NCBI GenBank assembly: GCA_027313705.1
Contig: DAHVDE010000116.1
Coordinates: forward strand, 1 to 36,918
DNA from: Actinomycetota bacterium
Lineage (GTDB): Bacteria > Actinomycetota > Actinomycetes > Streptosporangiales > Streptosporangiaceae
Reading direction: 5' to 3'
DNA length: 36,918 nucleotides
Shown: in pieces, positions 4,418 through 29,940 of the stretch
Numbering within the stretch: position 1 is the first letter of the stretch
Layout of the letters: each line of letters opens with the position of its first letter
Position numbers and translations under genes: made by a program
The notes under the pieces: generated by a model
What the model was told of the DNA's origin: nothing
Database searches by the model: none
The model's input: only the letters and a program-made list of their open reading frames with translations

Positions 4418-4419
4418 GC

Positions 4420-9733: not shown

Positions 9734-9739
9734 CCGGCA

Positions 9740-9745
9740 AGCCTA
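9740..9745 (-). promoter_or_regulatory. -10 box of leaderless holA
   Basis: TAGGCT on the minus strand followed by six bases and the GTG at 9733; no Shine-Dalgarno is present. Confidence 0.6.
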
Positions 9746-9839
9746 CCGATCCCGCCCCCCGGATGCCGCAGGCTAGCGGGCTACCCTGGACCGGCCGGCT
9801 GGTAAGCTCACCGCATCAAGACCATCCGCGCCGGACGCC

Positions 9840-15950: not shown

Positions 15951-16769
15951 ATGCCAACCCAGTTTGAGAAGGCCGAGCAGTTCCTCGCACTGCACCGCGG
16001 CAAGTCCCCGCTGCTGATGCCCAACGCGTGGGATGTCGGGTCGGCGAAGCTGCTCGCCTCGCTCGGATTCCAGGCGCTAGCGACCACCAGCAGCGGCTTC
16101 GCGGCGACTCTCGGTCAAGTCGACGGGACGGTGACCCGCGAAGAGGCGCTGGCGCACTGCGCGGCGATCGTCGGCGCCACCGACCTGCCGGTATCCGCTG
16201 ACCTTGAGAACTGCTACGCCGAGGACCTCGAAGGAGTCGCGCAGACGGTGCGGCTGGCGATCGAGGCCGGCCTGGCCGGCTGCTCGATCGAGGATTACTC
16301 GAGCGGACCAGACGCCAGGATTTACGACCGGGAACTTGCAGCCGAGCGGGTCGCGGCCGCCGCCGCGGCGGCGCACGCCGGTCAGGTACCGCTGGTCCTG
16401 ACCGCGCGCGCCGAGAACCACATCCGCGGCAACCCCGACCTCGCCGACACGATCGCCAGGCTGCAAAGCTACGCCGAGGCCGGCGCCGACGTGCTCTACG
16501 CACCCGGCATCACCAAGCACGCCGAACTGCGCGAACTCGTCGCCTCCGTGGACCGCCCGGTCAACGTGCTCGCGCTGCCGCAAGTCCCGCCGGTCGCCGA
16601 ACTCGCCCAGCTAGGGGTCGCGCGCGTGTCGGTCGGCGGTGCCTTCGCCTTCGCCGCTCTCGGCGCCGTTGCCGAGGCCGGCCGGGAACTGCTCGAGCAC
16701 GGCAGCTACGGCTACTGGGCGCTGGCCAGGCCGGGCACCGCCGCGGCCCGCGCCGCCTTCACCCGCTGA
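15951..16769 (+). CDS. Isocitrate lyase/PEP mutase superfamily protein
   Basis: 272 residues, a single (beta/alpha)8 barrel domain of the PEP mutase/ICL family. Seen: LLMPNAWDVGSAKLLASLGF (~21-40), TTSSGFAATLG (~45-55), SADLENCYAED with the Mg-binding acids D84 and E86, CSIEDYS (~111-117), LTARAENH (~145-152). It lacks the KKCGH loop of true isocitrate lyase and is far shorter, so it is not aceA. Family members include oxaloacetate hydrolases, 2-methylisocitrate or dimethylmalate lyases and C-P bond enzymes; the substrate cannot be read from sequence. Its place next to malate synthase makes a glyoxylate- or oxoacid-yielding lyase attractive but unproven. Confidence 0.8.
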   Translation: MPTQFEKAEQFLALHRGKSPLLMPNAWDVGSAKLLASLGFQALATTSSGFAATLGQVDGTVTREEALAHCAAIVGATDLPVSADLENCYAEDLEGVAQTVRLAIEAGLAGCSIEDYSSGPDARIYDRELAAERVAAAAAAAHAGQVPLVLTARAENHIRGNPDLADTIARLQSYAEAGADVLYAPGITKHAELRELVASVDRPVNVLALPQVPPVAELAQLGVARVSVGGAFAFAALGAVAEAGRELLEHGSYGYWALARPGTAAARAAFTR

Positions 16770-16826
16770 CCCGGGCGTCAGCCAACCGCTGGGCCTCGAA
16801 GCCTGCCGAGCTGCACGATCGGGTTG

Positions 16827-17001
16827 AAGCTGGGCGACGCTTCGTGAGTTCTACGGCGATGAGGCACGGGCGCAGATCACGCAGGCCATCGGCGCTCTCT
16901 CACTCGTCGGCAAGTTCCCGCAAGTTCCTTCCCTGGCAGGTCCTCGGTCGGGCAGCCTCGATGCCGACGACGGTGAGATGCCGCCACGGGGTCGAAAGTC
17001 G
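16827..17001 (+). pseudogene. Possible gene fragment cut by the IS
   Basis: In one frame the stretch reads LREFYGDEARAQITQAIGAL and onward without stops into the left IS end. The pattern (FYGDE...ITQAIGAL) recalls the C-terminal helices of carboxymuconolactone decarboxylase/AhpD-like proteins, but it is too short to be sure. There is no start codon with a ribosome binding site, and a stop lies just upstream in frame. The rest of 16770-16826 shows nothing. Confidence 0.25.
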
Positions 17002-17049
17002 GGATCTAGCCCGTATTTTCGTGATGGTCTCGGCCCTGTCGCGGCCGGG

Positions 17050-17582
17050 TTACTGGCTGAGCAGGACGTGCTTGCGCAGTAGCCCGAAGGTGGCTCGGCC
17101 ATACATCTGCCGCTTGAGCATTTTCAGAGTTCCATGGCAGGGTCAGGCCGTTGAGGACAGCGTCGTGGTCGTGGCGCAGGCCCAGGTGAAGGAGTGCAGG
17201 TCGGGCTGGTCGTCGGCCTCGACGGCGGTGATCCAGTCCGCCGGGCGCGCCGCGCGGTCAGCCCCGCGATCTGCTCAGCGAAGGTTTTCTTCCGGCAATC
17301 CGGGTTAACGCCGAAGAACCGGCGCACCGCTAGCCGGATCACCACCCGGCGGCCGCCAACCGGGGCGTCAGCCAGCCGCCGCCCGTAAGAGCTGTGCACC
17401 CGGCCCGACACCTGGCCGCAGCGCGGGCACGCGGCCTGGTCCGCGCGGGCGCGCGCCCGCAGGCACAAGCACCCCGCCAGCTCGGCGGCCTCCACGATCA
17501 CCCCGCCCAGATGCGGCAGCAGCACCTCCGGCCTGATCCCAAGCTGGCACGACAAGCAACCCCTGACCTGCGACAATGACAC
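17050..17582 (-). pseudogene. ISL3 family transposase, internally deleted and frameshifted
   Basis: From the GTG at 17582: an N-terminal zinc-ribbon region with LLPHLGGVIVEAAELAG, CPRCGQVSGRVHSSYGRRLA, RRFFGVNPDCRKKTFAEQIA and GLTARRARRT. That is the ISL3 N-terminus (one Cys of the usual CxxC in the second pair appears lost). After this the catalytic core is missing. C-terminal pieces follow in three frames: DWITAVEADDQPDLHSF, then LRHDHDAVLNGLTLPWNS, then KMLKRQMYGRATFGLLRKHV, ending at TAA 17050-17052. These last motifs are the ISL3 C-terminal signature with the intervening GAVEG segment deleted. The gene cannot encode an active transposase. Confidence 0.8.
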
Positions 17583-17585
17583 GGC

Positions 17586-17637
17586 GGACTCCTGGGAGGA
17601 CGGCTGGCTTCGACAACCGCCGGCCTACCAGGAGTCC
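17586..17637. repeat. 10-bp inverted repeat upstream of the transposase start
   Basis: GGACTCCTGG (17586-17595) and CCAGGAGTCC (17628-17637) with a 32-base loop, immediately upstream of the transposase GTG on its own strand. Possibly a leader hairpin limiting transposase expression. Confidence 0.5.
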
Positions 17638-17750
17638 CTCCAAAATTCCCCCGTAACACGCCGACCACCGGATAAAGCAGGCCGGATCGTTACACGCCCA
17701 ACTTCCGGCCGAAAGGGCTCGTTACCGTCACGAAATACCGGCCAGATCCA

Positions 17751-18004
17751 AAATTCGAACGCCGTTGACGCTGCCATAGGCTGGCAAACGCTAGACGGGG
17801 CGGTGCGAGGACCGCCCGCTGTGTCACATCGGGTTGCCCGGGTGGATCGCCGGTGAACGCCGCGCCGTCCAGGAATATCATCGACTCGCGTACGGCCAGT
17901 TCCTTGGCTAGTTGCTGGACCGACAGAAGGGCGTCCGGCGGAAGGCCGTCGAGCAGGTCATCGGTGACGCAATCCCAGCGCCAGTCAGCCAACAGCGACC
18001 TCAC
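17751..18004 (-). pseudogene. DUF6247 partner gene, 3' end displaced by the IS
   Basis: Reading from a GTG at 18004, which overlaps the end of the DUF6247 gene by 20 bases: WRWDCVTDDLLDGLPPDALL, LAKELAVRESMIFLDGAAF, GDPPGQPDV. I do not recognise the family with certainty; the layout (small basic/acidic protein translationally coupled to DUF6247) resembles a toxin-antitoxin-like pair. The frame runs into the IS terminal repeat at 17750 (reading SNF then GSGRYFVTVT from the repeat) and stops at 17690, so the native C-terminus is gone. A TTG at 17992 is an alternative start. Confidence 0.45.
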
Positions 18005-18338
18005 GGTAAGCGGCCTGGACGATTTCGGCCGCTTCCCGGATGGCCCGTTCGCGGATGTCGGCGTCGGGATCGGCGAGCGCGTGCTCGGCGGCGTGCAGGC
18101 GCGTGGCGACCGAGGGCCGGCGCTCGATCGCAATGGTGGCGCCCCAGCGCTGGTAGAAGTGCCGGATCGGGAAGACGCTGTCTTCTTGGCCGGCCTGGGT
18201 GAAGGCATCCTGGATTTCCTGGAAGAACTCAGGCAGCCGGGAGGGCACGAGGACAGCTACCGCTTGCCGCAGCGCGTCGAGCGTCAGCGCTGGCGTGGCT
18301 ATCAGCGGCTCGTCACCTTGCACCCGCTCAGCTGTCAT
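17985..18338 (-). CDS. DUF6247 family protein
   Basis: 117 residues, mostly helical: TLDALRQAVAVLVPSRLPEF, FYQRWGATIAIERRPSVATR, HAADP-like end ADPDADIRERAIREAAEIVQ. This is the pattern of DUF6247, small actinobacterial proteins of unknown function usually found upstream of a small partner gene, possibly antitoxin-like. The ATG at 18338 has a strong Shine-Dalgarno (AAGGAGG, eight bases away), favouring it over an upstream in-frame start at 18371. The downstream partner has been truncated by an IS, so the pair is probably no longer functional as a unit. Confidence 0.65.
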   Translation of the reverse strand: MTAERVQGDEPLIATPALTLDALRQAVAVLVPSRLPEFFQEIQDAFTQAGQEDSVFPIRHFYQRWGATIAIERRPSVATRLHAAEHALADPDADIRERAIREAAEIVQAAYREVAVG

Positions 18339-18897
18339 CGGTGGTGCCTCCTTGTTCCAGGCCAAGGACAACCGCGCCAGGTGTCACTTGGCCCTGCACT
18401 CGCCTGGGCAGTGCGGTGGCTCCAAGTAGGCCACCTGCTGACCGGCGGGTCCGGGAACCACCTTCGCCGAAGGTGACCGAGAACCAGGACTAGGCCCGCG
18501 CCTGCCTGACAACTTGCTAGCCGTCCTGATGGCGGTCAGCATCGCGGCCGACAGCAAACAAAGGACAAGGGCTCGATGTCTTAGCTCGCGTGGCCCGGAG
18601 CTGGCGGCGCCGTACCGCGAGAAGCCGGCGGAGGCCGGGCAATCTCGCTGCGGTGGCGCTGGAGTTCGGCTGGGTCGGCGAGCGGGCCGGGGTGGGCTAG
18701 CTTGCCCGGGTTGATGACTCGCCAGGTCCCCGAGGAACACCAGCACGGTCAAGTCGAACGATCAGCGGATCAGCATGCAAACGATCTTGAGCGGCACCCG
18801 GTCAGCCAGCCATCACAGCGCTAGCCTCTCAGGCAAACGGGCAACTCAACACCGCGATCCAGTTTGCGGTCACCACAAGATCCAGATCTGGCATACA
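18339..18897. other. 559-base region without a recognisable gene
   Basis: Open frames exist on both strands (for example 18384-18752 minus) but have the Pro/Arg/Ser composition of chance high-GC frames, with no ribosome binding site and no family motif. Probably the upstream region of the DUF6247 gene plus decayed DNA from the accessory region. No RNA gene or clear repeat is seen. Confidence 0.5.
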
Positions 18898-20457
18898 TTA
18901 CGGCTTAGATGAAGAAAAGTACCAGCATGTCGACAAATCTAATTCCCGATTAGCAGGTGGCAGACGGTATGCGCGGTTGCGGCTGGCGGGCGGGGCGGTC
19001 GCTATTAGTTGTCCGGCTGTGACGAGGCGGGCAAGGTGGCGGTTGGTCATGGCTTTGCTGAGACCGGTGGCCCTGGCGATGTCGGCGGCGGTGAGGTCTT
19101 GCTGGCCGGTAAAGAGCGCGAGGATCTCGGCGGGCCGCCCGGCGAGGTTTCCGCGCGCGCGGGAGAGGTCTCTTCCCGCGCCGGACTCGTCGCTGCTGGG
19201 TGTGTCGCGGGTGAAGGTGACGGTGAAGTGGCTGATCGCATTGGAGAGCTTCGCTGATGCGGTGCCCGAGCGGCGCAGTTGCCCGAGCATTGCAGGGATG
19301 CCGGTACCCCGGTTTTCGCAGATGACCCGGTCGCTGCCGGGTAGTTGCACTTCCTGGAGCAAGGCCGAAAGGACGGGGTTGCGGGACGAGGTGACTCCCT
19401 CAGTGCCGAGTTCGCCCTCGGCCACGGGACCGAACAGGCCTCCGGGGTTCCGCACGACGAGCCGCCTTGGGTACATCTCGACCTGGACCTGTGCTCCTCG
19501 TGACGGCGGTGAGTAGTCCCGGTGCATGATGGCGTTGACGACCGCTTCTCGCAGCGCCTCCACCGGGTACTCGTAGACGTCTTGCCTGCCGATTCCCCGC
19601 ACGGTGCCCGCGAGCCGCATGTTCCTCGTGATGGCATCCACAGCATCGGAGACCATCCAGGGGACCGCACCGTTCAGCGAGCGGTTGTCGATGAATCGCG
19701 GCCCGCCCTCCGGGACGACGCCCACCTGATCCGAGGGGAACATCACGAAGGTGACGTTCAACTGCGGGAAGAACTCCTGGGGGTAGGTCCCGAGCGTCAG
19801 CAGGCCTGCCAGTGACGGCACCAGCCTGTCCGACTCCGGGGCCTCTGGCACCAGAACGCCGAGCCGCCGCAGGGCCACCTTATCGGATACCAGGCGAAAT
19901 GCCCGGGGCTGCCGACGCCGCATCCGCTGCAGAAGCGCCGAGACAGCGTCATCGTCCAGATCGACGGTCGACGCCCCAGCGACCGGCTCCCTGTCGGCGC
20001 GCGGCTGCCCCCGATTCGCGTGCAGCAGCGCGACCTCGTAGTCCGACAGCTTCCGGTCCCCGCCCTTGATGAATGATCCTTGGTATTCCCCGCGGCCACG
20101 CACGTATGCGGGCTTGCTGAGCGGGCTGATCTCGGGAACTTCGGCCACCACAACCTGGGCGCCCTCGAACGGGAGGATGTCTATCACAGTCCGGACCGGA
20201 GGATGGATATCGTCCGCGCATGCACGAGCGAGCGCGTCCCGCGTCTTCACCGCGTCGAACCCGGGAGCGGGCCGGAAACCCGTTCCCTCGTCCAGCCCCA
20301 AGATCACCGTGCCGCCGGCGCTGTTGCTGAACGCGCTGAGTGTCTCAGCCAGCGATTTCGGCAGCTTCCCAACCGCCGACTTCACCTCGACCGAGTGCGT
20401 GTCCGCTCTGACAGAGCGAAGCTCAGCCACCAGACGGTTCAGGCTTTCAGTATCCAC
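18898..20457 (-). CDS. AlbA_2 (Schlafen-type)/GHKL ATPase/winged-helix regulator
   Basis: 519 residues. Domain order: AlbA_2/Schlafen-AAA_4 type nucleic-acid binding domain (~15-140; EVKSAVGKLPKSLAETLSAF, SNSAGGTVILGLDE); a GHKL-like ATPase domain (~265-430) with N-box EALREAVVNAIMHRDYS (300-316), G1-like VVRNPGGLFG and G2-like NRGTGIP (382-388); then a winged helix (~440-495; AADIARATGLSKAMTNRHLA). Such proteins are often named ATP-binding or RecG-related; some act as transcription regulators and related Schlafen-type domains occur in phage defence. GTG start with GGAGG five bases upstream. An array of repeated motifs lies 75-120 bases upstream, suggesting autoregulation. Intact and full-length. 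Confidence 0.8.
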   Translation of the reverse strand: MDTESLNRLVAELRSVRADTHSVEVKSAVGKLPKSLAETLSAFSNSAGGTVILGLDEGTGFRPAPGFDAVKTRDALARACADDIHPPVRTVIDILPFEGAQVVVAEVPEISPLSKPAYVRGRGEYQGSFIKGGDRKLSDYEVALLHANRGQPRADREPVAGASTVDLDDDAVSALLQRMRRRQPRAFRLVSDKVALRRLGVLVPEAPESDRLVPSLAGLLTLGTYPQEFFPQLNVTFVMFPSDQVGVVPEGGPRFIDNRSLNGAVPWMVSDAVDAITRNMRLAGTVRGIGRQDVYEYPVEALREAVVNAIMHRDYSPPSRGAQVQVEMYPRRLVVRNPGGLFGPVAEGELGTEGVTSSRNPVLSALLQEVQLPGSDRVICENRGTGIPAMLGQLRRSGTASAKLSNAISHFTVTFTRDTPSSDESGAGRDLSRARGNLAGRPAEILALFTGQQDLTAADIARATGLSKAMTNRHLARLVTAGQLIATAPPASRNRAYRLPPANRELDLSTCWYFSSSKP

Positions 20458-20527
20458 CGGCGCCTCCAGCTCCCGCGCGGATGCCGGCGCATCAGCCGCG
20501 TACGCGGCTCCGCATCATGCGCCAGGA

Positions 20528-20578
20528 CGTCAGTCTACCATCGGTCTACCATGTGATGCGACTGACAGTAGACTGACG
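20528..20578. promoter_or_regulatory. Operator-like repeat array upstream of the AlbA_2 gene
   Basis: A perfect 11-bp inverted repeat, CGTCAGTCTAC (20528-20538) and GTAGACTGACG (20568-20578). Inside it the left side repeats GTCTACCAT at 20533 and 20544, and the right side repeats ACTGAC at 20561 and 20572, both with an 11-bp period (one helical turn). It is 71-121 bases upstream of the GTG at 20457. Likely binding sites for an oligomeric repressor, probably the product of that gene (inference). Confidence 0.65.
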
Positions 20579-20776
20579 GCAGTACGGCGCTGCCGACCAG
20601 GCGTGCCAACAGGCCAGCGAGCCCAAGTCCGGTGACGAGAGAGACGACGATAGTGCTCAGACATCCTGAAATGCCAGGTCAGAGTAAAGGATCTAGACGG
20701 ACGGTCGGAGTAACCACTCCCACCTGCCCCGTCCGTGGCCTTTCCCTACTCCGGCCGTGGGCTGGTCCGTGCTCGT

Positions 20777-20797
20777 CCGTGGCCGGTTCCGCCACGG
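20777..20797. terminator. Perfect GC hairpin, possible terminator or protein-binding site
   Basis: CCGTGGC, seven-base loop, GCCACGG. No T-run follows on either strand, so a Rho-independent terminator is not assured. The same core sequence recurs as GTCCGTG several times between 20728 and 20840. Confidence 0.3.
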
Positions 20798-20851
20798 TCG
20801 GGTGGACCGCTTGGGCACGGAACCCGGCACCCACGGACGCATAGCGGACGT

Positions 20852-20926
20852 CATGACTACGCCGATACCGGAAGCACGGTCAGCCGATGAGACGATGAAT
20901 CCGCCCGCCTCGTGACAGGCGCAGCG
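20852..20926. repeat. Direct repeat copy 1 (75 bp), left boundary of 6.1-kb block
   Basis: Identical to 27030-27103 except for one extra T in this copy, which changes CGCCCGTGAC to CGCCTCGTGAC. Both copies begin CATGACTACGCCGATACCGG and end GACAGGCGCAGCG. In this copy the ATG-led frame (MTTPIPEARSADETM...) stops after 20 codons because of the extra base. Sequence outside the 75 bases is unrelated on both sides. Confidence 0.9.
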
Positions 20927-21032
20927 CCTTGACGCTTGGGCGAGTCAGGAAGGTGATGATCTGGGCCGGCTGTTCCAGGTAATGGACCTGCCGGACAGGA
21001 TGTACCAGTGTTCCCGCTCAGGGAATTTCTCG

Positions 21033-21236
21033 TTATATTCCTTCACTTGCCTGTCTAAGCTCTTCGATGTGATAGGGGCACAGGAAAACCGAGAGCCGGT
21101 GTTGCACGTCTTTCATCTCGGCCTCTAGCGGCACTGAGAGCGGCTCGTGTCGTTTCAGCTCGTCGCATACATTCCAGATCGCGTTGCACAACGAAGAACC
21201 TTCTTTCGTCCCTTCGCTGCCAGCGCTGAACTTCAT
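21033..21236 (-). CDS. Small unknown protein, 67 residues
   Basis: Last gene of a four-gene minus-strand operon. The likely start is the ATG at 21236, eight bases after the stop of the gene before it; the frame is open a little further (to 21284) but that overlaps the upstream gene. The sequence (SLCNAIWNVCDELKRHEPLS, LEAEMKDVQHRLSVFLCPYH) looks helical with three cysteines and an acidic C-terminus. No family is recognised. Base composition is less G/C-rich than the surrounding core genes. Confidence 0.5.
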   Translation of the reverse strand: MKFSAGSEGTKEGSSLCNAIWNVCDELKRHEPLSVPLEAEMKDVQHRLSVFLCPYHIEELRQASEGI

Positions 21237-21244
21237 ACGCCGTT

Positions 21245-21514
21245 CTAGCTCACTGCCCGCGCGGCATCCGGCATGGGAGCGCATTCCTCATCAGGCGACA
21301 GCGCGTCGAGCAGAACGCCGATCAGCTTGTTCTTGGCAGCGCCGAACTCGGCCGAGAAGCGCTCCAGATCCCCGTTCACCGGCTCCTGGTCCCGCAGTGC
21401 CTTGATGATAGCCAGGTCTGCCGCGTCCACGGCATCCCACAGCACCACCAGCGCTTTTTCAACCGCCGTAACCCAATCCGGGGGCGTCAGTTTCGCCATT
21501 ACCTGTTCCTTCAT
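21245..21514 (-). CDS. Small unknown helical protein, 89 residues
   Basis: Starts at an ATG that overlaps the stop of the upstream HTH gene as ATGA, so the two are translationally coupled. Predicted almost wholly helical: WVTAVEKALVVLWDAVDAAD, IIKALRDQEPVNGDLERF, AAKNKLIGVLLDALSPDE. No cysteines in the core and no transmembrane segment. No family is recognised. An internal ATG at the sixth codon is an alternative start. The tight coupling to an HTH protein suggests they work together. Confidence 0.6.
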   Translation of the reverse strand: MKEQVMAKLTPPDWVTAVEKALVVLWDAVDAADLAIIKALRDQEPVNGDLERFSAEFGAAKNKLIGVLLDALSPDEECAPMPDAARAVS

Positions 21515-21891
21515 GTCGCTAAATGAAACGCCAGGGGCAAGCCAGCCAGGCCCGCCAGTGCGCCAAGAGTCAGCTTACGGTCGGCCGGAACATCTCTATT
21601 ACCCGGCCAGTTCTCATACTCACTCAGATGCGCCGAAGTCATACCGCAGAAGCCTCCAGGGTCCACGCCAATCTCGCCGCGATAGCTGTTAATCCTCACG
21701 GCAGCCTCTTGCAGCGTCCAGCCATACGCCTCACGCCACGCCGGACGCGGGCGCAAATGATAGACACGGGCAAACTCGGCGGCGATCTGCCGGTAACCCA
21801 TGCCCGCCGAGCGCATCCGCTCATGCAGCTCCCGCCTCTCCCCTCGCAGGCTCGTCCGTGCATAAACCACTCCTAAACCACCCCCTTCCAT
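21511..21891 (-). CDS. XRE-type HTH protein, short form
   Basis: 126 residues from the ATG at 21891 (GTG at 21894 also possible), with AAAGGTGAG just upstream. It contains the segment typical of the N-terminus of large actinobacterial XRE-TPR regulators: RSAGMGYRQIAAEFARVYHL, RPAWREAYGWTLQEAAVRIN, GMTSAHLSEYENWP and LGALAGLAGLPL. Those relatives usually carry several hundred further residues; here the protein ends just after the HTH, so it is a stand-alone DNA-binding module or an ancestral truncation. Second gene of the four-gene operon; its stop overlaps the next start. Confidence 0.65.
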   Translation of the reverse strand: MEGGGLGVVYARTSLRGERRELHERMRSAGMGYRQIAAEFARVYHLRPRPAWREAYGWTLQEAAVRINSYRGEIGVDPGGFCGMTSAHLSEYENWPGNRDVPADRKLTLGALAGLAGLPLAFHLAT

Positions 21892-21941
21892 CACTCACCT
21901 TTGGTCGCACCTCGGCTGCCGGCCGCTCCAGTCGTCACGGA

Positions 21942-22295
21942 TCATCTGGCGCACTCGGAGGAGCTCTCAGTCGTGCTGCTCAACCTGAGCAGCATCTCCG
22001 GAATCGGCGCAGGCGACCCGAGGCTCACTTGCACCGCCGCTAGCTGAGCATCGCCGACTTTTCCCGCAATGTACGCGGCGAGCACGCGGCAATAGTGAAT
22101 CCCGCGCGGCTTGCACAGGACGCCGTTCTGCCCGCCGTGCGCGTTGCAGAACGAACACCACTCGGTGCAAGAAACGATCGCGGCCTGCTCGACTAGCTCC
22201 CTGACGTGCGACTCGCCCGGCGAGGCACTAACAACCTTGGCCACTGCACTGCGTGAATGTTCCTGCCGCATGGTCACGCTAACTATTATGACCAT
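21942..22295 (-). CDS. Small Cys-rich protein with a CX3CX2C motif
   Basis: 117 residues, probably the first gene of the operon that continues with the HTH gene 50 bases on. The middle reads SCTEWCSFCNAHGGQNGVL then CKPRGIHYCRVLAAYIAGK: cysteines at 43, 47, 50, 61 and 69, plus C115 near the end. The CX3CX2C spacing equals the radical SAM cluster motif, but the protein is far too short for that fold, so a zinc or small Fe-S site is more likely. The start could be the ATG at 22295 or the ATG at codon 9 (22271). An A/T-rich TAATAG patch lies around the first start. No family is recognised. Confidence 0.55.
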   Translation of the reverse strand: MVIIVSVTMRQEHSRSAVAKVVSASPGESHVRELVEQAAIVSCTEWCSFCNAHGGQNGVLCKPRGIHYCRVLAAYIAGKVGDAQLAAVQVSLGSPAPIPEMLLRLSSTTESSSECAR

Positions 22296-22375
22296 GGCAT
22301 TTATGCCAGCGGAAGATGACAGGCGTTGGCAAGGGGGTTAACATGGGGGCCGTTAGCCTATGACATCATGAACGC

Positions 22376-23404
22376 ATGCGCCTGCTGATTCTTGGTGGCA
22401 CTTGGTTCCTGGGCCGGACACTGGCTGAACAGGCTGTGAGGCAGCAGTGGCAGGTCACGACTTTTTCCCGGGGACGCAACGGCCACGACGTACCCGGCAC
22501 CGTGGCCATCAGAGGCGATCGTAACCGCGAGGCTGACCTTGTCGCCTTGGCCAGCGCCGGACGCTGGGATGCTGTGGTGGATACCTCTGGCTATTCACCC
22601 GAAATGGTGGCCGTGTCCGCAGCGGCGCTCCGGCCGGTTTCAGATCACTATGTCTACCTGTCGACAGTGAATGCCTACCGCGGGTGGCCGGATGAACCAC
22701 TGAAGGACGACTCTCCGATTTTCGATGCCGCCGATGCCGTCGGCAGCGAAAGAGTTGATGCGGGCAAGGGGTCATCGGTTGCCTATGGCCCGCTCAAGGC
22801 CGCGTGCGAAATGGCTGCCGAGTGTCATTTTGCGAATCACGACTGCCTGGTGCTGCGGCCTGGCGTGGTGCTTGGTCCCTATGAATACGTCGGCCGGCTG
22901 CCGTGGCTGCTGGCCCGTATGCGCAAAGGCGGTCCTGTGCTCGCGGCCGGAGATCCGTCCCGGCTCATTCAGCCGGTTGACGTGCGTGATCTGGCAGAAT
23001 TCATCCTGCTAGGGATTTCGAATAGACTCAGCGGCAGCATGAACGTAACTGCGCCGATCGGGCATTCTAGCTACGGGGAGCTGCTTAGCGCTTGCAATGA
23101 GGTTACAGGAAACCGCGCGGAACTTGTCTGGGTCAGTGAGCAGTGGCTTTCTGAGCAAGATGTGAAGCCATGGACAGAGATACCGCTATGGCGAATGTCG
23201 CCCGGCGCGTGGGCAGTTTCTTCAGACAGGGCTGTCAGCGCTGGTCTCATATGCCGGAGCCTAGGCGAAACGGTTGCGGATACCTGGGAATGGCTCGGCC
23301 ACGAGCAGCCCATTCCGCACCAGCGAGCTAGCGAAATCGGCATCGACTCAGCGAAGGAACGGCGGCTACTCGCTGCCTGGAACAATAGCGGCGCCCGGCG
23401 GTAG
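22376..23404 (+). CDS. NAD-dependent epimerase/dehydratase family protein (extended SDR)
   Basis: 342 residues, Rossmann fold. N-terminal nucleotide-binding GGTWFLGRTLAEQA (residues ~7-20), VVDTSGYSPEMV (~66-77), STVNAYRGW (~95-103) and the catalytic YxxxK as VAYGPLKAACEMA. C-terminal part carries substrate-binding PVDVRDLAEFILLG. Closest in style to actinobacterial reductases/epimerases of unknown substrate. Less G/C-rich than neighbours, with many A/T third positions, indicating transfer. Divergent from the four-gene operon (80-base gap) and its 3' end overlaps the XRE-TPR gene by 39 bases convergently. TAGCCT at 22354-22359 is a plausible -10; an ATG at 22368 opens a six-codon frame (MNACAC) overlapping the true start. 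Confidence 0.8.
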   Translation: MRLLILGGTWFLGRTLAEQAVRQQWQVTTFSRGRNGHDVPGTVAIRGDRNREADLVALASAGRWDAVVDTSGYSPEMVAVSAAALRPVSDHYVYLSTVNAYRGWPDEPLKDDSPIFDAADAVGSERVDAGKGSSVAYGPLKAACEMAAECHFANHDCLVLRPGVVLGPYEYVGRLPWLLARMRKGGPVLAAGDPSRLIQPVDVRDLAEFILLGISNRLSGSMNVTAPIGHSSYGELLSACNEVTGNRAELVWVSEQWLSEQDVKPWTEIPLWRMSPGAWAVSSDRAVSAGLICRSLGETVADTWEWLGHEQPIPHQRASEIGIDSAKERRLLAAWNNSGARR

Positions 23405-25048
23405 GGCTTTGGGCGCAGCGACAGCCGTGAACGCCGCAATGCGCCCGATAAGGTTCTTTGCCATCCTGGGCCGCGCCGAATGCGATTTGCCGGCAAGGGC
23501 GACGGAGATGTTCCCGAGACGCTCAACCAGGCCGTAGCGCCGCTGGCCGGACTCTAGTTCCCAGATCGGCGTCAGGGTCTCCTCGACCGCGTCTGCGTGG
23601 CCCTGGGCCAGTTCAGCATAGGCAAGATCCGCTCTGGCCAGGACGCTGACGCGCTGTCCGGCCTGGTCTTCGGGCTGCAACCGGATTGCCTCCCGAGCGC
23701 GCTCAGCCGACTGAAACGCATCCCCGATTGCCAGCAGCGCGCTGGCCGCTGACATCGTCTGGCGGGCCGGACCCCAGGCAAACTGACCGCCGATCACATC
23801 ACGAAGTTCGTCGCCACCGCTGTCACCGATGCCATCGCGGTCACGATCAGCCAGCGCCAGAGCAGCGCGGGTACGCTCCGGGTCGCCGACGTGCGACCAC
23901 GCACGAGCCAGAACGCTGTGCAGGTGAGCCCGTGCAGAACCGGCCGGTGCCAGGGCGACGCCAGCCTCAGCGAGCTTCACTCCCTCCGCAGCGCGGCCAC
24001 GCCAGTACGCCGTGATGGCCTGCATCCCCAGAGCCCACGACTGCAACGACCGGTAACCGATCATCTCAGCGTAGAGCGACGAAGCGTGAGACTGCTCAAT
24101 GACTGCGGGCCATATGCCAAGGTCGAACGACGCTTCTGCCATCAGCGCACAGAGCTGGCCGGTAATCAAATACAGATCGGCGCTCTGGCCAGGCCGTTTC
24201 GTGCGTTCCTCCAACCGCAACGCCAGATCACGGGACTCACGGCATTCCGACAGGAACGCAATCGGCGAGATGCTGCCGAAATTACGGGCCAGATAGATGA
24301 CATGCGCCCGCAGATAGTCAATGCTCGCATCCGGCACAAGTCTCCCGGCATGGTCGGCAGCCTTGTCACCCGACTCATGCGCCGTTGCCATAACCAGCGC
24401 CCCGACATCAGTCCAGAATGCAATCTCGCGACCGACCGGCGGCGATGCCTGTTTCTTGCCGCCAAGTTCACGGGGAGACAGCCCGAAAAGCTCGCATAGC
24501 AGGGGCCGGTAGAATTCGTCGGGTACATAGTGACCGTTTTCCCATCGGGATAGCTGTGTCTTCAGGCTCCGCGCGGAAGCTACCGTCATCTTCTTTTTTG
24601 CCGCGAGGTTCGTTATCTCCCACACAGCGCGTCCCTGCGACCAGCCTTTATCGCGGCGCGCGGCCTGGAGTGGAGTTACCGCAAGGCCGGAATCGTCCTG
24701 GTCGTCCATGACGGCGGCGTCCCTGCCGGGCACGTCCGACGGTGCCATGTCCTGTCCCGGGCGGACGAAGCCCAGCTCAGCGAACGGCCGCTGGCACAGC
24801 TCGGCGAGCACCCGGCGGTAGGCCGGGTGCGGATACCGGATGTCCCCGTCTTCCAGCCGGGCCACGTACCGCTCAGAGGGCGACGCCTGCTCTCCCAGCC
24901 TGGCTGCCGCCCGCGTCATGGCGTCGGCGAATTCCTGCCGGGTCTCGCGACGTTCCTCCTCGCGGATGCGGCGCAAGACCACGTTCGGCCTCTTGCGCGT
25001 TTCGCGTTCCGGGCGCTCGCGAATCGCGCCGGACTCCGGCGGGGTCAA
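23366..25048 (-). CDS. XRE family regulator with two HTH segments and TPR-like C-terminus
   Basis: Up to 560 residues. First HTH-like region ~20-90 (VVLRRIREEERRETRQEFAD ... YVARLEDGDIRYPHPAYRRV), second ~125-195 (LQAARRDKGWSQGRAVWEIT ... LKTQLSRWENGHYVPDEFYR, LFGLSPRELG), then helical TPR-like repeats from ~240 to ~530 (AEMIGYRSLQSWALGMQAIT, WSHVGDPERTRAALALADRD). Large actinobacterial XRE-TPR proteins regulate nearby genes, sometimes in response to a small peptide or partner. The start is uncertain: TTG at 25048 (GGGGAG upstream) or GTG at 24982 (AAGAGG six bases upstream, 538 residues). Upstream, CCCG-AAAA-CGGG near 25056 is a small dyad. Confidence 0.75.
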   Translation of the reverse strand: MTPPESGAIRERPERETRKRPNVVLRRIREEERRETRQEFADAMTRAAARLGEQASPSERYVARLEDGDIRYPHPAYRRVLAELCQRPFAELGFVRPGQDMAPSDVPGRDAAVMDDQDDSGLAVTPLQAARRDKGWSQGRAVWEITNLAAKKKMTVASARSLKTQLSRWENGHYVPDEFYRPLLCELFGLSPRELGGKKQASPPVGREIAFWTDVGALVMATAHESGDKAADHAGRLVPDASIDYLRAHVIYLARNFGSISPIAFLSECRESRDLALRLEERTKRPGQSADLYLITGQLCALMAEASFDLGIWPAVIEQSHASSLYAEMIGYRSLQSWALGMQAITAYWRGRAAEGVKLAEAGVALAPAGSARAHLHSVLARAWSHVGDPERTRAALALADRDRDGIGDSGGDELRDVIGGQFAWGPARQTMSAASALLAIGDAFQSAERAREAIRLQPEDQAGQRVSVLARADLAYAELAQGHADAVEETLTPIWELESGQRRYGLVERLGNISVALAGKSHSARPRMAKNLIGRIAAFTAVAAPKALPPGAAIVPGSE

Positions 25049-25352
25049 CCCGCACTCCCCGTTTTCGGGATTTCAGACATCACACCAAGGCCCTTCCCAG
25101 AAACCGGGATCAGCCTACCGGTCGGCGGGGCAGGCTAGAAGTAAAGCCACGGCCGCTCCCGTGACCGTGCGTGATCGTCTCAATGTCTCAGCCCTCGCGC
25201 GTGTCTGCACGTAAAGGGCCATATCTGGCAGTTAGACGAGACCATAAGACAATCACAGGACGTGACATCCTGGCAGGTGCGACAGCCCGACTAGCGCGTG
25301 TCGCGCAGGCGCACGCGCACGGCTCGCGTGCGTCTGCACTATAGGGGCAGCG
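25049..25352. other. 304-base intergenic region with a repeated GTCTGCAC motif
   Basis: No gene. GTCTGCAC occurs at 25203-25210 (followed by GTAAAG) and 25332-25339 (followed by TATAGG), 129 bases apart, possible operator or promoter elements for the XRE-TPR and ATPase-remnant genes that flank it. The CCCGTTTTCGGG-like dyad near 25056 lies just ahead of the XRE start. Confidence 0.35.
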
Positions 25353-25605
25353 TTGCGCGACCGGGCGGGCACTCTCGTCTTGCCGCAGGCCAGCCAACTC
25401 CCCGTCACCACGACCAGCCCCGCAACCGTGGCGGGCGTGGCGCGGGCCGCGCCGTTCGCTGCGCAGCGGCCGTACCGGAGTTTCCTCGAACTGGGCGCAG
25501 TGCCCTGCGCCCGGCTGCACGCCCGCCTCGTCCTAGCCGAATGGGGCCTGGCCGCGCTCAGCGAGACCCCCGAACTCGTGGTGTCAGAGCTGGTCACCAA
25601 CGGGT
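25353..25605 (+). pseudogene. RsbW-like ATP-binding protein, N-terminal remnant
   Basis: From a TTG at 25353 the translation contains RSFLELGAVPCARLHARLVL followed by AEWGLAALSETPELVVSELVTNG, the start of the actinobacterial histidine kinase-like ATPases related to anti-sigma factor RsbW (N-box E..SELVTN). After VTNG the match ends abruptly and the continuing frame (to 25871) has only chance-like sequence, so the ATP-lid and G boxes are missing. These ATPases are often found beside XRE regulators, as here. The region from 25606 to 25994 shows no gene; it has a T-rich patch near 25945 ahead of the antitoxin gene. Confidence 0.6.
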
Positions 25606-25994
25606 CCGGGCCTCCCGCGCGATGGGGCAGGTCAGGCAGGCCGATGCGACATGTCTGCCACACTTATGCATCGGTTTTGCTGTGGTTCTGCCCGGCAGTG
25701 CCGGGTTACCTAGAGAGTACGACAGCAGGGGCACCCGGAACGACATCGCCTCGGCCGGCCCGCTTGCGTTCCCGGCCGGGTGAGCCGTCTCGGAGGAGCG
25801 GTGCGCGGGACCGCGTTCGGTCCCGTTTAGTTTGCGCGCGCAGCTCATGCGTGTGTTCCATGGAGTCGTGACGCTGTAGAACAGGCGGACAGGAGGCTCT
25901 GCGTTGGTCCGCAGGATTCGAGGCTCCTCTGGTGTTGTTCGGTTTTTTCGTTTAGCCGCATGCTTAGGAAGAAACTTTGCGAGGAGTCGGGTGG

Positions 25995-26489
25995 ATGAGT
26001 GCGCAGGCGGCCAGTAATGAGCCAACGACGTACCTGCCGGAAGGCAGCGAGCTTGCCGCGGTCGTGGACTTCGCCGCCGTGCTTGCGCGCCATGGTGTCG
26101 CTGTGCCCGAGCCGCGTCCTGCCCTGGTGGACGTGGAAGGCAACCGCGTGGAGGTGCCGGAGCCGCTCTTCGAGGCGCTGGTTCAGGTGGCGACGGCCAT
26201 GGCCCGCGGCCAGGCGGTGACGGTCATGCCGCACAGCGCTCTCCTGACTACCCAGGAAGCCGCTGATCTGCTGGGCATCTCTCGGCCTACCGTTGTGCGA
26301 TTGCTGGAAGGCGGCGAGATCCCGTTTGAGGTCCGGGGTCGTCATCGCCGTATCAGGCTTGCTGACCTGCTGGCCTACCAGGAGCAGATGCGCCATCGGC
26401 GGCGCGAGGCGCTGGCGGAGATGGTGCGGGTCGGCGAGGAAACCGGCCAGTATCAAGCGACGGCCGGGCCGCCGCCGCGCACGCGGTAG
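25995..26489 (+). CDS. Excisionase/MerR-type HTH antitoxin of a PIN toxin
   Basis: 164 residues from the ATG at 25995, with GAGGAG nine bases upstream (an in-frame upstream start at 25977 is less likely). An N-terminal ~80-residue part is followed by an HTH_17 excisionase-like domain at ~84-131: LLTTQEAADLLGISRPTVVR, LLEGGEIPFEVRGRHRRIRL, ADLLAYQEQ. Proteins of this build stand directly before PIN-domain toxins in actinobacteria and act as their DNA-binding antitoxins. The PIN gene begins nine bases downstream but is broken. The antitoxin itself looks intact. Confidence 0.75.
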   Translation: MSAQAASNEPTTYLPEGSELAAVVDFAAVLARHGVAVPEPRPALVDVEGNRVEVPEPLFEALVQVATAMARGQAVTVMPHSALLTTQEAADLLGISRPTVVRLLEGGEIPFEVRGRHRRIRLADLLAYQEQMRHRRREALAEMVRVGEETGQYQATAGPPPRTR

Positions 26490-26498
26490 AGTCCGGCC

Positions 26499-26985
26499 GT
26501 GGCGTTCACGGCCTTTCTCGATACCAATGCGCTTTACGGCGAGTACTTGTGCGACACGCTGCTGCGCCTGGCGGGGGCGGGAACGTATCGGCCGCAGTGG
26601 TCGGCAGGGGTGCTTGAGGAGCTAGAGCGCAACCTCGTCGAGAATGCCTGGCTGTTCTGACGTGCTGGTTACGTTCAGCGTCAGTGATTTTCCCGATGAC
26701 TCGACCGCACCGTATGACCTCGAAGTCATTAGCGCGGACGATTTTCTGCTTGATCAGCTGGATCTCTATCCTGGCATCACTTTGGCGGTCTTGCGCAGTC
26801 AGTCCGGCGACTATGCGGTGCCGCCTATGACGACGGAGCAACTCCTGGGCGCCCTGGCAATCGCTGGTGTCGCCGCACTGGGCAATCGGAGGCGACGAGC
26901 ACTGGTTCCGAAGAACCCCGCCTTCCGATCGAGGACCTGTATCACGACAGCGGTGCCGTGCCATGCGACGGCGAGGCCGTGTTAG
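26499..26985 (+). pseudogene. PIN-domain toxin, internally deleted and frameshifted
   Basis: Starts with GTG at 26499: AFTAFLDTNALYGEYLCDTL (first PIN Asp at position 8), LLRLAGAGTYRPQWSAGVLE, ELERNLVEN, then a stop at 26658-26660. The family's C-terminal part continues at once in another frame (from ~26650): VLVTFSVSDFPDDSTAPYDL, EVISADDFLLDQLDLYPG, MTTEQLLGALAIAGV. About 50-55 residues that would hold the central catalytic acidic residues are missing, and the Asn usual in VTFN is Ser. It cannot form a normal PIN nuclease. Its location next to an intact antitoxin shows a decayed toxin-antitoxin pair. Confidence 0.75.
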
Positions 26986-27029
26986 CTGGCGGGGACCTGC
27001 TTCGTCGCGCCGCGACTGGTCCCACGCGG

Positions 27030-27103
27030 CATGACTACGCCGATACCGGAAGCACGGTCAGCCGATGAGACGATGAATCCGCCCGCCCGTGACAGGCGCA
27101 GCG
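27030..27103. repeat. Direct repeat copy 2 (74 bp), right boundary of 6.1-kb block
   Basis: Second copy of the 75-bp repeat at 20852-20926, differing by one missing T. Here the ATG at 27031 opens a 41-codon frame (MTTPIPEARSADETM ... VAVVDDGYR, stop at 27154-27156) that runs past the repeat to 29 bases before the glcD start. No Shine-Dalgarno precedes it and no family is recognised, so coding is uncertain. Confidence 0.9.
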
Positions 27104-27184
27104 AAATCCGGGCTCTGGCCCGGCAGGTCGCCGTTGTGGATGATGGATACAGGTGAGCCGCCCGATTCGATTGGAGCCGAGCCC

Positions 27185-28648
27185 ATGACACAGGACGTGG
27201 CCACCCTTGCCCCCCGTCTCGCGGCTATCTGCGGCAAGGACGCAGTGATCACCGACCCGCTCGAACTGGCGACCTACGAGTGCGACGGCCTGACCGCCCA
27301 CCGCTGCCGTCCGGGGCTAGCGGTGCTGCCCCAGACCGCGGCCCAGGTCGCGGACGTCGTGAGGGTCTGCGCGCAGGAGAACGTGCCTTTCGTGGCGCGG
27401 GGCAGCGGCACAGGGCTCTCAGGCGGGGCGCTCCCCGCCGCCGACGGGGTGCTGATCGTCACCGCCAGGATGCGGGCGATAGTCGAGATCGACGCGGAAA
27501 GCCGCCGCGCGATAGTCGAGCCAGGCGTCACCAACCTGGCGGTCAGCAAGGCTGCCCAACCTTACGGGCTGTTCTACGCCCCCGACCCGTCCAGCCAGCA
27601 GGTGTGCTCGGTTGGCGGCAATGTGGCGGAGAACTCGGGCGGCGCGCACTGCCTGAAGCACGGGTTCACCGTGCACCACGTCACCGGGCTGGAGATCGTG
27701 ACCCCGGCAGGTGAGCTGACCTGGCTGGGTGACGGGACGGGGCTAGCCCCAGGGTATGACCTGACCGGCGCCTTCACCGGCTCGGAAGGCACGCTCGGCA
27801 TCGTCACCAAGATCATCGTCAAGCTGACGCCGATCCCGCAGGCCGTGACCACGCTGCTCGCCGCCTTCGAGACGACCGGCCAGGGCGGTGCCGCCGTCTC
27901 CGCCATCATCGGCGCGGGCATACTGCCCGCCGCGATCGAGATGATGGACGCCCTGTCGATCGAGGCTGCCGAGGCCTCTGTCGCCTGCCACTATCCGCAG
28001 GGCGCCGGCGCCGTCCTCATCGTCGAACTCGACGGCCCCGAGCAGGACGTGCTCGCCGAGTCGGCCGCCGTCCGCCAGATCGCGGCAGACGCAGGCGCCT
28101 TCGAGATCAGGGAGGCCGCCGATCCCGATGACCGGGCGGCGATCTGGCGGGGGCGGCGGGCGGCCTTCGCCGCGATGGGCAGGATCAGCCCCGCCTACAT
28201 CGTGCAGGATGGTGTCGTGCCGCGCACGGCGCTGCACGACGTGCTCGACCGGATCGGCGAGCTATCGGCGGCGGCCGGCCTTCGGGTCGCGAACGTGTTC
28301 CACGCGGGCGACGGCAACCTGCACCCGCTGGTGCTTTTCGACGATTCGAGCGAGGCAGAAGCGGCAGCGGCGGAGGAGTTGTCTGGCGCGATTCTCGACG
28401 AGTGCATCAGGCACGGCGGCTCGATCACCGGCGAGCACGGTGTCGGCGTGGACAAATCCAAGTACATGCCGCGCATGTTCGGCCCCGACGACCTCGACAC
28501 CATGCAACTGCTCCGCTGTGCGTTCGACCCGGCTGGCCTGTGCAATCCAGGCAAGGTCTTCCCGACGCCTCGGCTGTGCGGTGAGGTCCCTGGCGTGCGG
28601 CGCGAGCCGCATCCGCTGGTGACGTCCGGCCAGGCGGAGCTGTTCTAG
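27185..28648 (+). CDS. glcD: Glycolate oxidase subunit GlcD (FAD-binding)
   Basis: 487 residues from the ATG at 27185 (GGAG nine bases upstream); in-frame ATGs further left are less likely. It is the FAD-carrying catalytic subunit that oxidises glycolate (or D-lactate) to glyoxylate. PCMH-type FAD-binding domain: FVARGSGTGLSGGALP, EPGVTNLAVSKAA, YAPDPSSQQVCSVGGNVAEN, GSEGTLGIVTKI. C-terminal FAD-oxidase domain: HAGDGNLHPLVLFDD and TGEHGVGVDKSKYM, FDPAGLCNPGKVFP. First gene of glcDEF, whose members follow by two bases and zero bases. D-lactate dehydrogenase is the main alternative; the E and F subunits next door favour glycolate oxidase. Confidence 0.92.
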   Translation: MTQDVATLAPRLAAICGKDAVITDPLELATYECDGLTAHRCRPGLAVLPQTAAQVADVVRVCAQENVPFVARGSGTGLSGGALPAADGVLIVTARMRAIVEIDAESRRAIVEPGVTNLAVSKAAQPYGLFYAPDPSSQQVCSVGGNVAENSGGAHCLKHGFTVHHVTGLEIVTPAGELTWLGDGTGLAPGYDLTGAFTGSEGTLGIVTKIIVKLTPIPQAVTTLLAAFETTGQGGAAVSAIIGAGILPAAIEMMDALSIEAAEASVACHYPQGAGAVLIVELDGPEQDVLAESAAVRQIAADAGAFEIREAADPDDRAAIWRGRRAAFAAMGRISPAYIVQDGVVPRTALHDVLDRIGELSAAAGLRVANVFHAGDGNLHPLVLFDDSSEAEAAAAEELSGAILDECIRHGGSITGEHGVGVDKSKYMPRMFGPDDLDTMQLLRCAFDPAGLCNPGKVFPTPRLCGEVPGVRREPHPLVTSGQAELF

Positions 28649-28650
28649 CC

Positions 28651-29940
28651 GTGGCGCATACCTCGATCCCCGCCAGCCTGGCGAGCGCCTGCGATGACGT
28701 CAGGCCGGCCACTGCGGCGGACACCGTCGCGGGGATACAGCCAAGCCTGGTAGCGGCGCCCGCGACGACCGAGCAGGCCAGCGCCGTCATGCGGGCCGCG
28801 GCCGCGCTCGGGCTTGCCGTGATCCCGCGCGGCGCCGGCACCAAGCTGCACTGGGGTTACCCGCCTGAGCGGGCCGACCTGGTACTTGACCTGACCCGCC
28901 TGGACCAGGTAGTTGAGCACGCGGCCGGTGACCTGGTAGTCACCGTCCAGGCCGGCGTCCGGCTAGAGCACCTCGCCAGCGTGCTTGCGGAGGCAGGTCA
29001 GCGGCTGGCCCTCGACTGCGCGGCACGACCGCTGCCGTCCGGGCCGGCCACCGCGGGCACCATCGGCGGCGTACTCGCCGCCGGCGCCGCCGGGCCGCTG
29101 CGCCTTCGGTACGGCACGCCGAGGGATCTGCTGATCGGCATCACGATCGTCAGGGCCGACGGCACGATCGCCAGGTCGGGCGGCAAGGTCGTGAAGAACG
29201 TGGCCGGTTATGACCTTGGCAAGCTGTTCGCCGGGTCGAGGGGCACCCTCGGCCTCATCACCCAGGCAACTTTCAGGCTGCACCCCATCCCGGCCGCCGC
29301 GGCGTACGTGATCGTTTCCTGCGACTCGGCTGCCGCCTGCGCCAGACTGGTCTCGGCGGCACTGGCCGCCGCGGTCTCCCCGGTCGCCGCCGAGCTTCAC
29401 CTGGCCAGTCTCGCCGGTCCCTGCGAACTGGCCGTCGCGCTCGAAGGTGACCATGACGGCGTAGCGCAGCGAAGTGGCATGCTGGCGGATCTGATGGCAG
29501 TGCAGGAGACAAGCCACGTGGCGGCAGTGGCTAGCCAGCCGCCCGCATGGTGGCGATCAGCGGGTGGCGCACCGCAGGAGGGCACGCTCATCCAGGTAGC
29601 TTTCTGGCCGGGAAAGCTCGGTTCTGTCCTGACCGGGATCGCGGCTGCCGCCGAGCGGGCCGGCCTTGACCCGGTACTGCGGGGCTCGGCCGGGTCGGGG
29701 GTGCTCCACCTGTCCGTGCCGCGCTCAGCCGACCCGGCCAGGGTGGCCGGCCTGGTTGCCAGCTTGCGTGCCGCGCTGCATGACCGGGGCAGCGCCGTCG
29801 TGCAGCACGCACCGCCACCGGTCAGGGACCTGGTCGACCTGTTCGGCCCGGTTCCCTCGCTGAACCTGATGCGGGCGGTAAAGCAGCAGTTCGATCCTGA
29901 CCGGGTGCTTTCGCCCGGCCGATTCGCCGGGGGTATCTAG
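28651..29940 (+). CDS. glcE: Glycolate oxidase subunit GlcE (FAD-binding)
   Basis: 429 residues, GTG start two bases after the glcD stop. A PCMH-type FAD-binding protein paralogous to GlcD: VIPRGAGTKLHWG, VTVQAGVRLEHLASVLAEAG, GTIGGVLAAGAAGPLRLRYG, GGKVVKNVAGYDLGKLFAGS, GTLGLITQATFRLHP, with the C-terminal FDPDRVLSPGRF. It forms the membrane-associated glycolate oxidase with GlcD and GlcF and is needed for activity. Its stop is directly followed by the glcF ATG. Confidence 0.9.
   Translation: MAHTSIPASLASACDDVRPATAADTVAGIQPSLVAAPATTEQASAVMRAAAALGLAVIPRGAGTKLHWGYPPERADLVLDLTRLDQVVEHAAGDLVVTVQAGVRLEHLASVLAEAGQRLALDCAARPLPSGPATAGTIGGVLAAGAAGPLRLRYGTPRDLLIGITIVRADGTIARSGGKVVKNVAGYDLGKLFAGSRGTLGLITQATFRLHPIPAAAAYVIVSCDSAAACARLVSAALAAAVSPVAAELHLASLAGPCELAVALEGDHDGVAQRSGMLADLMAVQETSHVAAVASQPPAWWRSAGGAPQEGTLIQVAFWPGKLGSVLTGIAAAAERAGLDPVLRGSAGSGVLHLSVPRSADPARVAGLVASLRAALHDRGSAVVQHAPPPVRDLVDLFGPVPSLNLMRAVKQQFDPDRVLSPGRFAGGI

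Follow-up and report, generated by a model that had tools for sequence, protein, structure and literature searches.

The closest described systems to the locus examined here are those in which an XRE-type regulator gene lies beside a DUF397 gene. Passages of one report note that XRE-DUF397 pairs have been proposed as type II toxin-antitoxin systems and present one such pair as an activator of antibiotic production (PMC10364602); part of a second report likewise discusses DUF397 with an HTH gene as a toxin-antitoxin system (PMC7159879). For XRE-DUF397 loci of the WhiJ/BldB type, the sections of a third report drawn on here (PMC10294661) describe extensive families of paralogs, in Streptomyces as well as in other actinobacteria. 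In Streptomyces venezuelae, according to the same sections, the XRE protein WhiJ9 binds repeats between iosA and whiJ9, is needed to activate iosA when bldB is mutated, and apparently represses itself; the DUF397 protein BldB interacts with BldB9 and appears not to bind DNA. The action of the variable third genes of these loci is left open in those sections.

We analysed a stretch of 36,918 nucleotides (the window) that makes up one whole contig of a 118-contig genome from the Streptosporangiaceae. A first-pass annotation had singled out four small ORFs, here A to D, as a compact unit of unfamiliar type. We consider it probable that three of them, B, C and D, represent a degraded copy, carried on an island, of a compact regulatory locus that combined an XRE-type regulator with two small partners, C and D. 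B-C-D is best read as the XRE/DUF5753-DUF397 (WhiJ/BldB-like) kind of locus with other small partners. This kind of regulator is itself already common in actinobacteria.

Layout and gene models

The four ORFs lie on the minus strand as first annotated, and the features on which the analysis rests are as follows.

21942-22295, minus strand: ORF A, Cys-rich, 117 aa; an open frame of unproven coding status.
21511-21870, minus strand: ORF B, limited to the HTH domain, 119 aa when counted from the probable GTG at 21870; 17-row alignment with longer relatives.
21245-21499, minus strand: ORF C, 84 aa from the likely ATG at 21499; relatives in genome G017, HMM match, codon score, AlphaFold2 model.
21033-21236, minus strand: head of D, reading as 67 aa; matched by an HMM of five G017 members (E 5e-4).
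20960-21082, minus strand: tail of D, in another frame than the head; matched by the same five-member HMM (E 1.2e-11), by tblastn of five G017 members, and by profile.
20849-20926, plus strand: left copy of a direct repeat, 61 bp at 98% (20849-20909) or 78 bp at 97% with one gap.
27027-27103, plus strand: right copy of the direct repeat, 61 bp at 98% (27027-27087) or 78 bp at 97% with one gap.
16745-27200, no strand: variable site, where three relatives from the same genus carry other genes instead (blastn against L035, L036 and L037).

Several gene models needed revision. The open frame of B (21511-21894) gives 127 aa from a GTG or, as first annotated, 126 aa from the next ATG, but translation probably begins at GTG 21870, where the sequences of its relatives start. 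For C, the open frame (21245-21514) gives 89 aa from ATG 21514, and the ATGA overlap described earlier is present; this may not be the true start, because the relatives of C begin at ATG 21499, which probably serves as its start codon. The 67-aa ORF for D and the eight-base gap before it are also there, but what had been taken for a whole protein is a frame-broken piece whose homology continues in another frame. The divergently transcribed neighbor, first called an SDR enzyme, is an NAD-dependent epimerase-type SDR.

The first-pass annotation stated that the three partners of the HTH protein match no familiar family; none of the four ORFs reaches a Pfam cut-off, and none is matched in NCBIfam, PHROGs or PADLOC at the limits used. 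It also stated that the architecture matches no named toxin-antitoxin, bacteriocin or defence type; the arrangement does resemble XRE-DUF5753/DUF397 (WhiJ/BldB) loci.

Among the four ORFs, C gives the strongest coding signal. Its codon score, 0.411, exceeds the 99th percentile of wrong-frame controls (0.280; n=162, mean -0.247, 95th percentile 0.176). Scores for A (-0.007), B (-0.025), D (-0.018) and the SDR gene (-0.010) are alike, and since B, D and the SDR gene have homology behind them, within this block the codon test is informative for C alone. A promoter and terminator scan gave nothing clear: one promoter-like site, on the opposite strand, and three terminator-like sites where 1.0 would be expected. 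A pair of the latter, at 21546-21530 and 21100-21088, falls inside the unit and on the strand of its genes and, if real, would speak against a single transcript. An 11-bp tandem repeat (21863-21884) crosses the start of B, at a frequency near chance window-wide (1.2 expected per 36.9 kb).

Two small protein families, C and D

Credible relatives of C or D were found only in the window's own genome (G000) and in G017, an assembly from another genus in 440 contigs, listed as 90% complete and 7% contaminated. The first relative of C lies on G017 contig C36 (32% identity over residues 2-73), and a second, weak match lies on C183 (E 0.01). A three-row profile extended the family to five places in G017: C387 (E 4.3e-15), C188 (E 2.8e-14), C354 (E 2.9e-6), and the query rows C36 and C183. 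An HMM built from the C183, C188 and C387 members, with the window and C36 left out, found ORF C as its sole match at E <= 1 among 882 window frames (19.7 bits, E 3.4e-5); the best of 17,640 shuffled frames reached 8.2 bits. Window C is thereby similar in sequence to C-like proteins that are linked to XRE genes in G017. At E <= 1 the same HMM misses the member on C36, whose link to the other members therefore runs through the C of the window.

ORF C is a complete gene, unlike B and D. AlphaFold2, run on the single sequence, predicts two helices (residues 11-42 and 50-72; mean pLDDT 71.6), so C, a small acidic protein, is probably a helical hairpin. A Foldseek search with C returned 6 matches at E <= 10 and none at E <= 0.001, and PDB sequence searches with A, B and C gave nothing below E 0.04. 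No match to C was seen in plasmids or viral contigs, nor any relative in a scan of genome contigs, of a kind that reaches close relatives only. In three overlapping draws, C occurred in 2/60 relatives, 1/297 genomes of the order and 2/230 genomes of the family. A match in G459 was rejected by eye as a histidine-kinase-like frame.

A single-sequence search with D found one marginal relative, in G017 (E 0.002; two of 250 genomes, counting its own). With a two-row profile, a second piece appeared in the window's own genome at 20960-21082, in another frame (E 0.005). The G017 protein, used as query in turn, recovered five G017 copies, the other four 40-51% identical to it, together with both window pieces. 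Finally, an HMM of the five G017 members, built without the window, placed just two of 882 window frames above its inclusion line: the tail, at 40.3 bits (E 1.2e-11), and, with a lower score of 15.8 bits, the head. The best of 17,640 shuffled frames reached 8.9 bits. Members of the family are about 97-138 aa long, and the intact form was taken to be one uninterrupted frame with the conserved C-terminal part. Because head and tail match the HMM in different frames, the gene is split between two frames: D does not occur here in one uninterrupted frame, and the window holds a broken member of the family. As the cause of the break, decay seems the simpler view on sequence grounds, compared with an assembly error or a programmed frameshift, because B is truncated and a PIN-domain remnant lies nearby.

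D occurred in 2/250, 1/297 and 2/250 genomes in three overlapping draws; one more match in the second draw and matches in five other genomes in the third were not accepted. Three relatives of C or D had no match in plasmids, and one D relative had none in phages. Four further candidates were set aside: a coiled-coil-like match in G150, a match on contig C66 of the window's own genome with four stops, a match to a 571-aa frame in G002 (E 0.005), and an ORF at L009:395-574 that looks D-like by eye and had no support in the search. One D-family query picked up proteins of DUF2087 (PF09860) in four genomes, all from a single genus, at per-genome E-values between 5e-4 and 5e-3. The hhalign probability is only 37.7, neither window D nor any of the five G017 D proteins matches that model, and D was not assigned to this family. 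The scanned members of the C and D families are nameless in Pfam, with weak matches below cut-off only, and one D relative, like the window proteins, has no name in NCBIfam, PADLOC or PHROGs; an earlier description under another name is possible.

C-like and D-like genes beside XRE regulators

The G017 genes of both families tend to lie beside XRE regulators, five of five D-like genes and three of five C-like genes doing so:

G017:C188, D-like gene: 2 bases after an XRE-DUF5753 gene, with a C-like gene directly ahead of that XRE gene.
G017:C137, D-like gene: after an XRE-DUF5753 gene.
G017:C238, D-like gene: after an XRE gene (HTH_31, no DUF5753 match) and a 181-aa ORF.
G017:C15, D-like gene: opposite an XRE-DUF5753 + DUF397 pair.
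G017:C289, D-like gene (L077, near 5645-5926, plus strand): opposite an XRE-DUF5753 gene (L077 4610-5869, minus strand).
G017:C387, C-like gene: opposite an XRE-DUF5753 + DUF397 pair.
G017:C183, C-like gene: opposite an XRE-DUF5753 gene.

The total of 8 of 10 places (7 loci) is a raw count and carries no probability. Each neighbor regulator scanned has HTH_31, and all but that of C238 have DUF5753. The C-like genes on C36, beside an IS4-type transposase, and on C354 have no regulator among the larger neighboring ORFs scanned.

On C188 both families meet in one tight C-XRE-D operon (9396-10956), with C at 9396-9686, the XRE gene at 9683-10537 and D at 10540-10956; C and XRE overlap by GTGA, and XRE and D are separated by a 2-base gap. 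The operon lies within one 65-kb contig and therefore was not created by binning, though the contig could still be another organism's. Given this operon and the 8 of 10 places beside XRE genes, C and D are real XRE-associated families. The recurrence that the first-pass annotation asked about, of a Cys-rich protein, a short HTH protein and two small helical proteins together, was borne out for an HTH regulator with C and D, in one G017 operon; the Cys-rich protein was not convincingly found elsewhere.

Set against described systems, these loci resemble the XRE (HTH_31-DUF5753)/DUF397 pairs of Scr1-Scr2 type, as presented in parts of PMC10364602 and PMC6262351: an XRE gene stands beside a gene for a small protein, and the C-like and D-like genes of G017 share such loci, two of them facing an XRE-DUF5753 + DUF397 pair. 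They differ in that C and D are not DUF397 proteins (A, C and D have no DUF397 match) and in that window B lacks DUF5753 and ends before any second domain. The WhiJ9-BldB9-IosA locus of Streptomyces venezuelae, as described in the sections used of PMC10294661, also has a third small gene adjoining an XRE + DUF397 pair, as on C387 and C15. IosA is a 15-kDa protein of pI 10.3, whereas C and its relatives have pI 4.3-4.6 and the D relatives 5.1-6.7.

Two minor features were seen at the G017 loci. The divergent arrangement of a D-like gene and an XRE-DUF5753 gene is repeated, on C289 as on C15. The 181-aa ORF between the XRE gene and the D-like gene (L016 1895-2440, plus strand) has no Pfam or PHROGs match and is perhaps another small partner family.

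ORF B is a truncated regulator

The B query found 16 places in 8 of 250 family genomes at E <= 1e-10, the window included. Its open frame of 127 aa is the shortest; the others run from 207 to 682 aa. In an alignment of 17 rows (15 distinct places, two pairs being apparently the same contigs), the HTH domain is followed in every row by a conserved continuation, and each row extends at least 206 aa from the start of the match. Four rows are short as well (206-222 aa from match start), none as short as B. Because B ends where the conserved continuation of its relatives begins, it is a truncated regulator. The earlier description of B as only the N-terminus of large regulators is upheld, as relatives continue past the HTH and the long ones are TPR-like; its description as a stand-alone HTH is not, B being a truncated form of longer regulators (17 of 17 rows are longer).

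Its best match in the named collection is L022, from a Streptosporangiaceae MAG (66%). Against HTH_31, B scores 15.2 bits, below the cut-off of 27, and no Pfam HTH model matches above cut-off. B has no DUF5753 and no NCBIfam match, and viral contigs held no relative of it. Long relatives carry a TPR-like region, and one of them, L023, approaches the NsdA family model NF053720 (71.1 bits, cut-off 75), which the neighboring window gene at 23366-25048 also matches (124.5 bits). B differs from the NsdA family in keeping the HTH domain only, without the TPR-like region.

The possibility that the ORFs are fragments of one decayed longer gene was rejected. In the window, the TPR regions of L023 and of a further long relative, L024, match only at 23.4-24.4 kb, within the separate gene 23366-25048, leaving no remnant at B-C-D, and C and D have relatives of their own. 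That outcome, named at the start as one that would overturn the proposed unit, is nevertheless approached, in that B and D are truncated and frame-broken forms of longer proteins.

These two lesions bear on a further reading, that the unit is a whole, working toxin-antitoxin-like module with B as a short antitoxin or repressor and C, D or both as toxin. A compact unit within an island, with frames that overlap or are closely spaced, would suit such a module, as would the proposal of XRE-DUF397 pairs as type II systems in passages of PMC10364602. We regard it as quite improbable, with D frame-broken, B truncated, no PADLOC or NCBIfam match for any of A-D, and one XRE-DUF397 pair acting, in the same passages, as an activator of antibiotic production.

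Two observations concern regulators outside the B-C-D locus. In the L022 MAG, a 216-aa B-family regulator stands directly behind a 97-aa second HTH-like ORF (3552-4512, plus strand). In the window, the gene at 23366-25048 (minus strand) encodes a complete NsdA-family TPR-like regulator (cut-off 75) and is convergent with the SDR gene at 22376-23404, the two overlapping by 39 bases.

ORF A is an orphan

ORF A holds five Cys within 27 residues, spaced C43-X3-C47-X2-C50-X10-C61-X7-C69 exactly as the first-pass annotation had it. A search of 60 relatives found it in its own genome only, and 296 class genomes gave four weak matches besides its own (G241, G086, G238 and G257; E 5.7e-4 to 0.01), none of which was accepted. 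Of the three alignments inspected, two lack the Cys pattern and that of G257 (E 0.01) has three of the five Cys in a frame that holds a stop; the frame of the G241 match, outside the three, also holds a stop. Neither plasmids nor viral contigs held a relative, and there was no Pfam match at E up to 10, and no ORF A at the C and D loci of G017. Its codon score lies inside the range of the wrong-frame controls, and its fold prediction is unusable (pLDDT 51.4). Nothing beyond the open frame supports A as a gene; it is an orphan ORF and not part of a recurring unit.

The cysteines, and the place of A upstream of B on the same strand, might suggest a sensor that binds a metal or a cluster and acts together with the products of B, C and D. 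With no convincing homolog in any of the collections searched, a codon score not above controls, and absence from the G017 loci, this is very improbable indeed. The CX3CX2C pattern is reminiscent of radical SAM enzymes, but there was no family match at E up to 10 and 117 aa are too short for that fold.

Proposed function of the intact locus

By analogy with the described systems, the XRE protein of an intact locus would bind its own control region and would control, or be modulated by, the small proteins C and D, much as WhiJ9 is reported to act with iosA and BldB9 in the sections used of PMC10294661. On this analogy, an intact C-XRE-D operon would most likely be a self-regulated XRE switch, with the small proteins as its output or modulators. 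The window copy, whose regulator lacks everything behind the HTH domain and whose D is split, would be expected to do little or nothing, since no more than C and a repressor-like HTH would be left.

Several findings stand against viewing B-C-D as a degraded locus of this kind. G017 is the only genome outside the window's own with credible relatives of C or D, and its contamination is 7%. Its regulators are of the HTH_31(-DUF5753) type, and B belongs to another HTH family; the gene order is C-XRE-D there and B-C-D here. For two of the five C-like genes no XRE neighbor was seen, and none of the B-family loci fetched has a C or D gene.

A more far-reaching proposal, which we hold tentatively and stop short of favoring, is that C and D are two undescribed small partner families standing where WhiJ-type XRE loci have their variable component (DUF397, AbaA or IosA), and that a C-XRE-D operon is the full version. 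Loci of this sort would then be exchangeable regulator-output cassettes that travel on islands, and the window cassette would have swapped its regulator for an NsdA-like HTH and be decaying. Two further small families sharing WhiJ/BldB-type loci, with an uninterrupted operon, would widen the known partners or outputs of these regulators. Being broken, the copy in the window is of little importance on its own; it is useful mainly as a pointer to intact copies, namely two unnamed partner families and an uninterrupted operon elsewhere.

Genomic setting

The locus lies in a block less rich in G+C, as first described (60.5-62.2% between 21 and 23 kb; every other 1-kb step has 63-72%). The direct repeat said to bound this block is likewise present, its copies at 20849 and 27027 enclosing 6.2 kb. 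No further copy was reported in the window's own genome or in G001-G004, and no scanned ORF of the repeat-bounded block matched an integrase model.

Comparison with relatives from the same genus defines a wider variable site. Window matches to G001, G002 and G004 end at 16744, 16731 and 15900, and resume, on the same contig in each, at 27206, 27245 and 27200. Between these flanks the relatives carry inserts of 4.45 kb (G001), 1.46 kb (G002) and 5.07 kb (G004), compared with 10.5-11.3 kb in the window; the G003 contig covers the right side of the site only. The inserts hold other genes, in G002 mainly one that appears by eye to be S-adenosyl-methyltransferase-like, and queries with A, C and D had no match in G001-G004. 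With the same flanks and different contents in relatives, the locus therefore sits in a variable site.

A site of this kind, with truncated genes in it, raises the alternative that B, C and D are chance neighbors, unrelated remnants piled up in an integration hotspot, and that their order has no meaning. The regulator type and gene order unlike those of the G017 operon, and the absence of C and D from every B-family locus fetched, agree with that account. We judge it unlikely, as the C and D families are both XRE-linked in G017, with one locus holding both, and here both follow immediately after an XRE-type HTH gene and share its strand.

Other genes in and around the site were noted. At 26016-26660 (plus strand), an excisionase-type HTH gene (TIGR01764, 58.2 bits) is followed by a 53-aa PIN-domain fragment (26499-26660) that matches positions 2-41 of the 177 in NF046100; the two resemble an HTH-PIN pair that has been truncated, within the block that also holds B-C-D. 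The stretch at 25353-25700 (plus strand) looks by eye like the first part of an anti-sigma-type HATPase domain, after which the resemblance stops; it has no Pfam or NCBIfam match. The gene at 18898-20457 (minus strand) encodes a protein with AlbA_2 (Schlafen), HATPase_c_4 and winged-helix matches, and near-identical 11-bp tandem copies ahead of it (20530-20552) are a candidate operator. The conserved right flank of the variable site (27089-31272, plus strand) consists of two FAD-linked oxidase genes and a gene for a 4Fe-4S/CCG protein in a row, reminiscent of a glycolate oxidase set.
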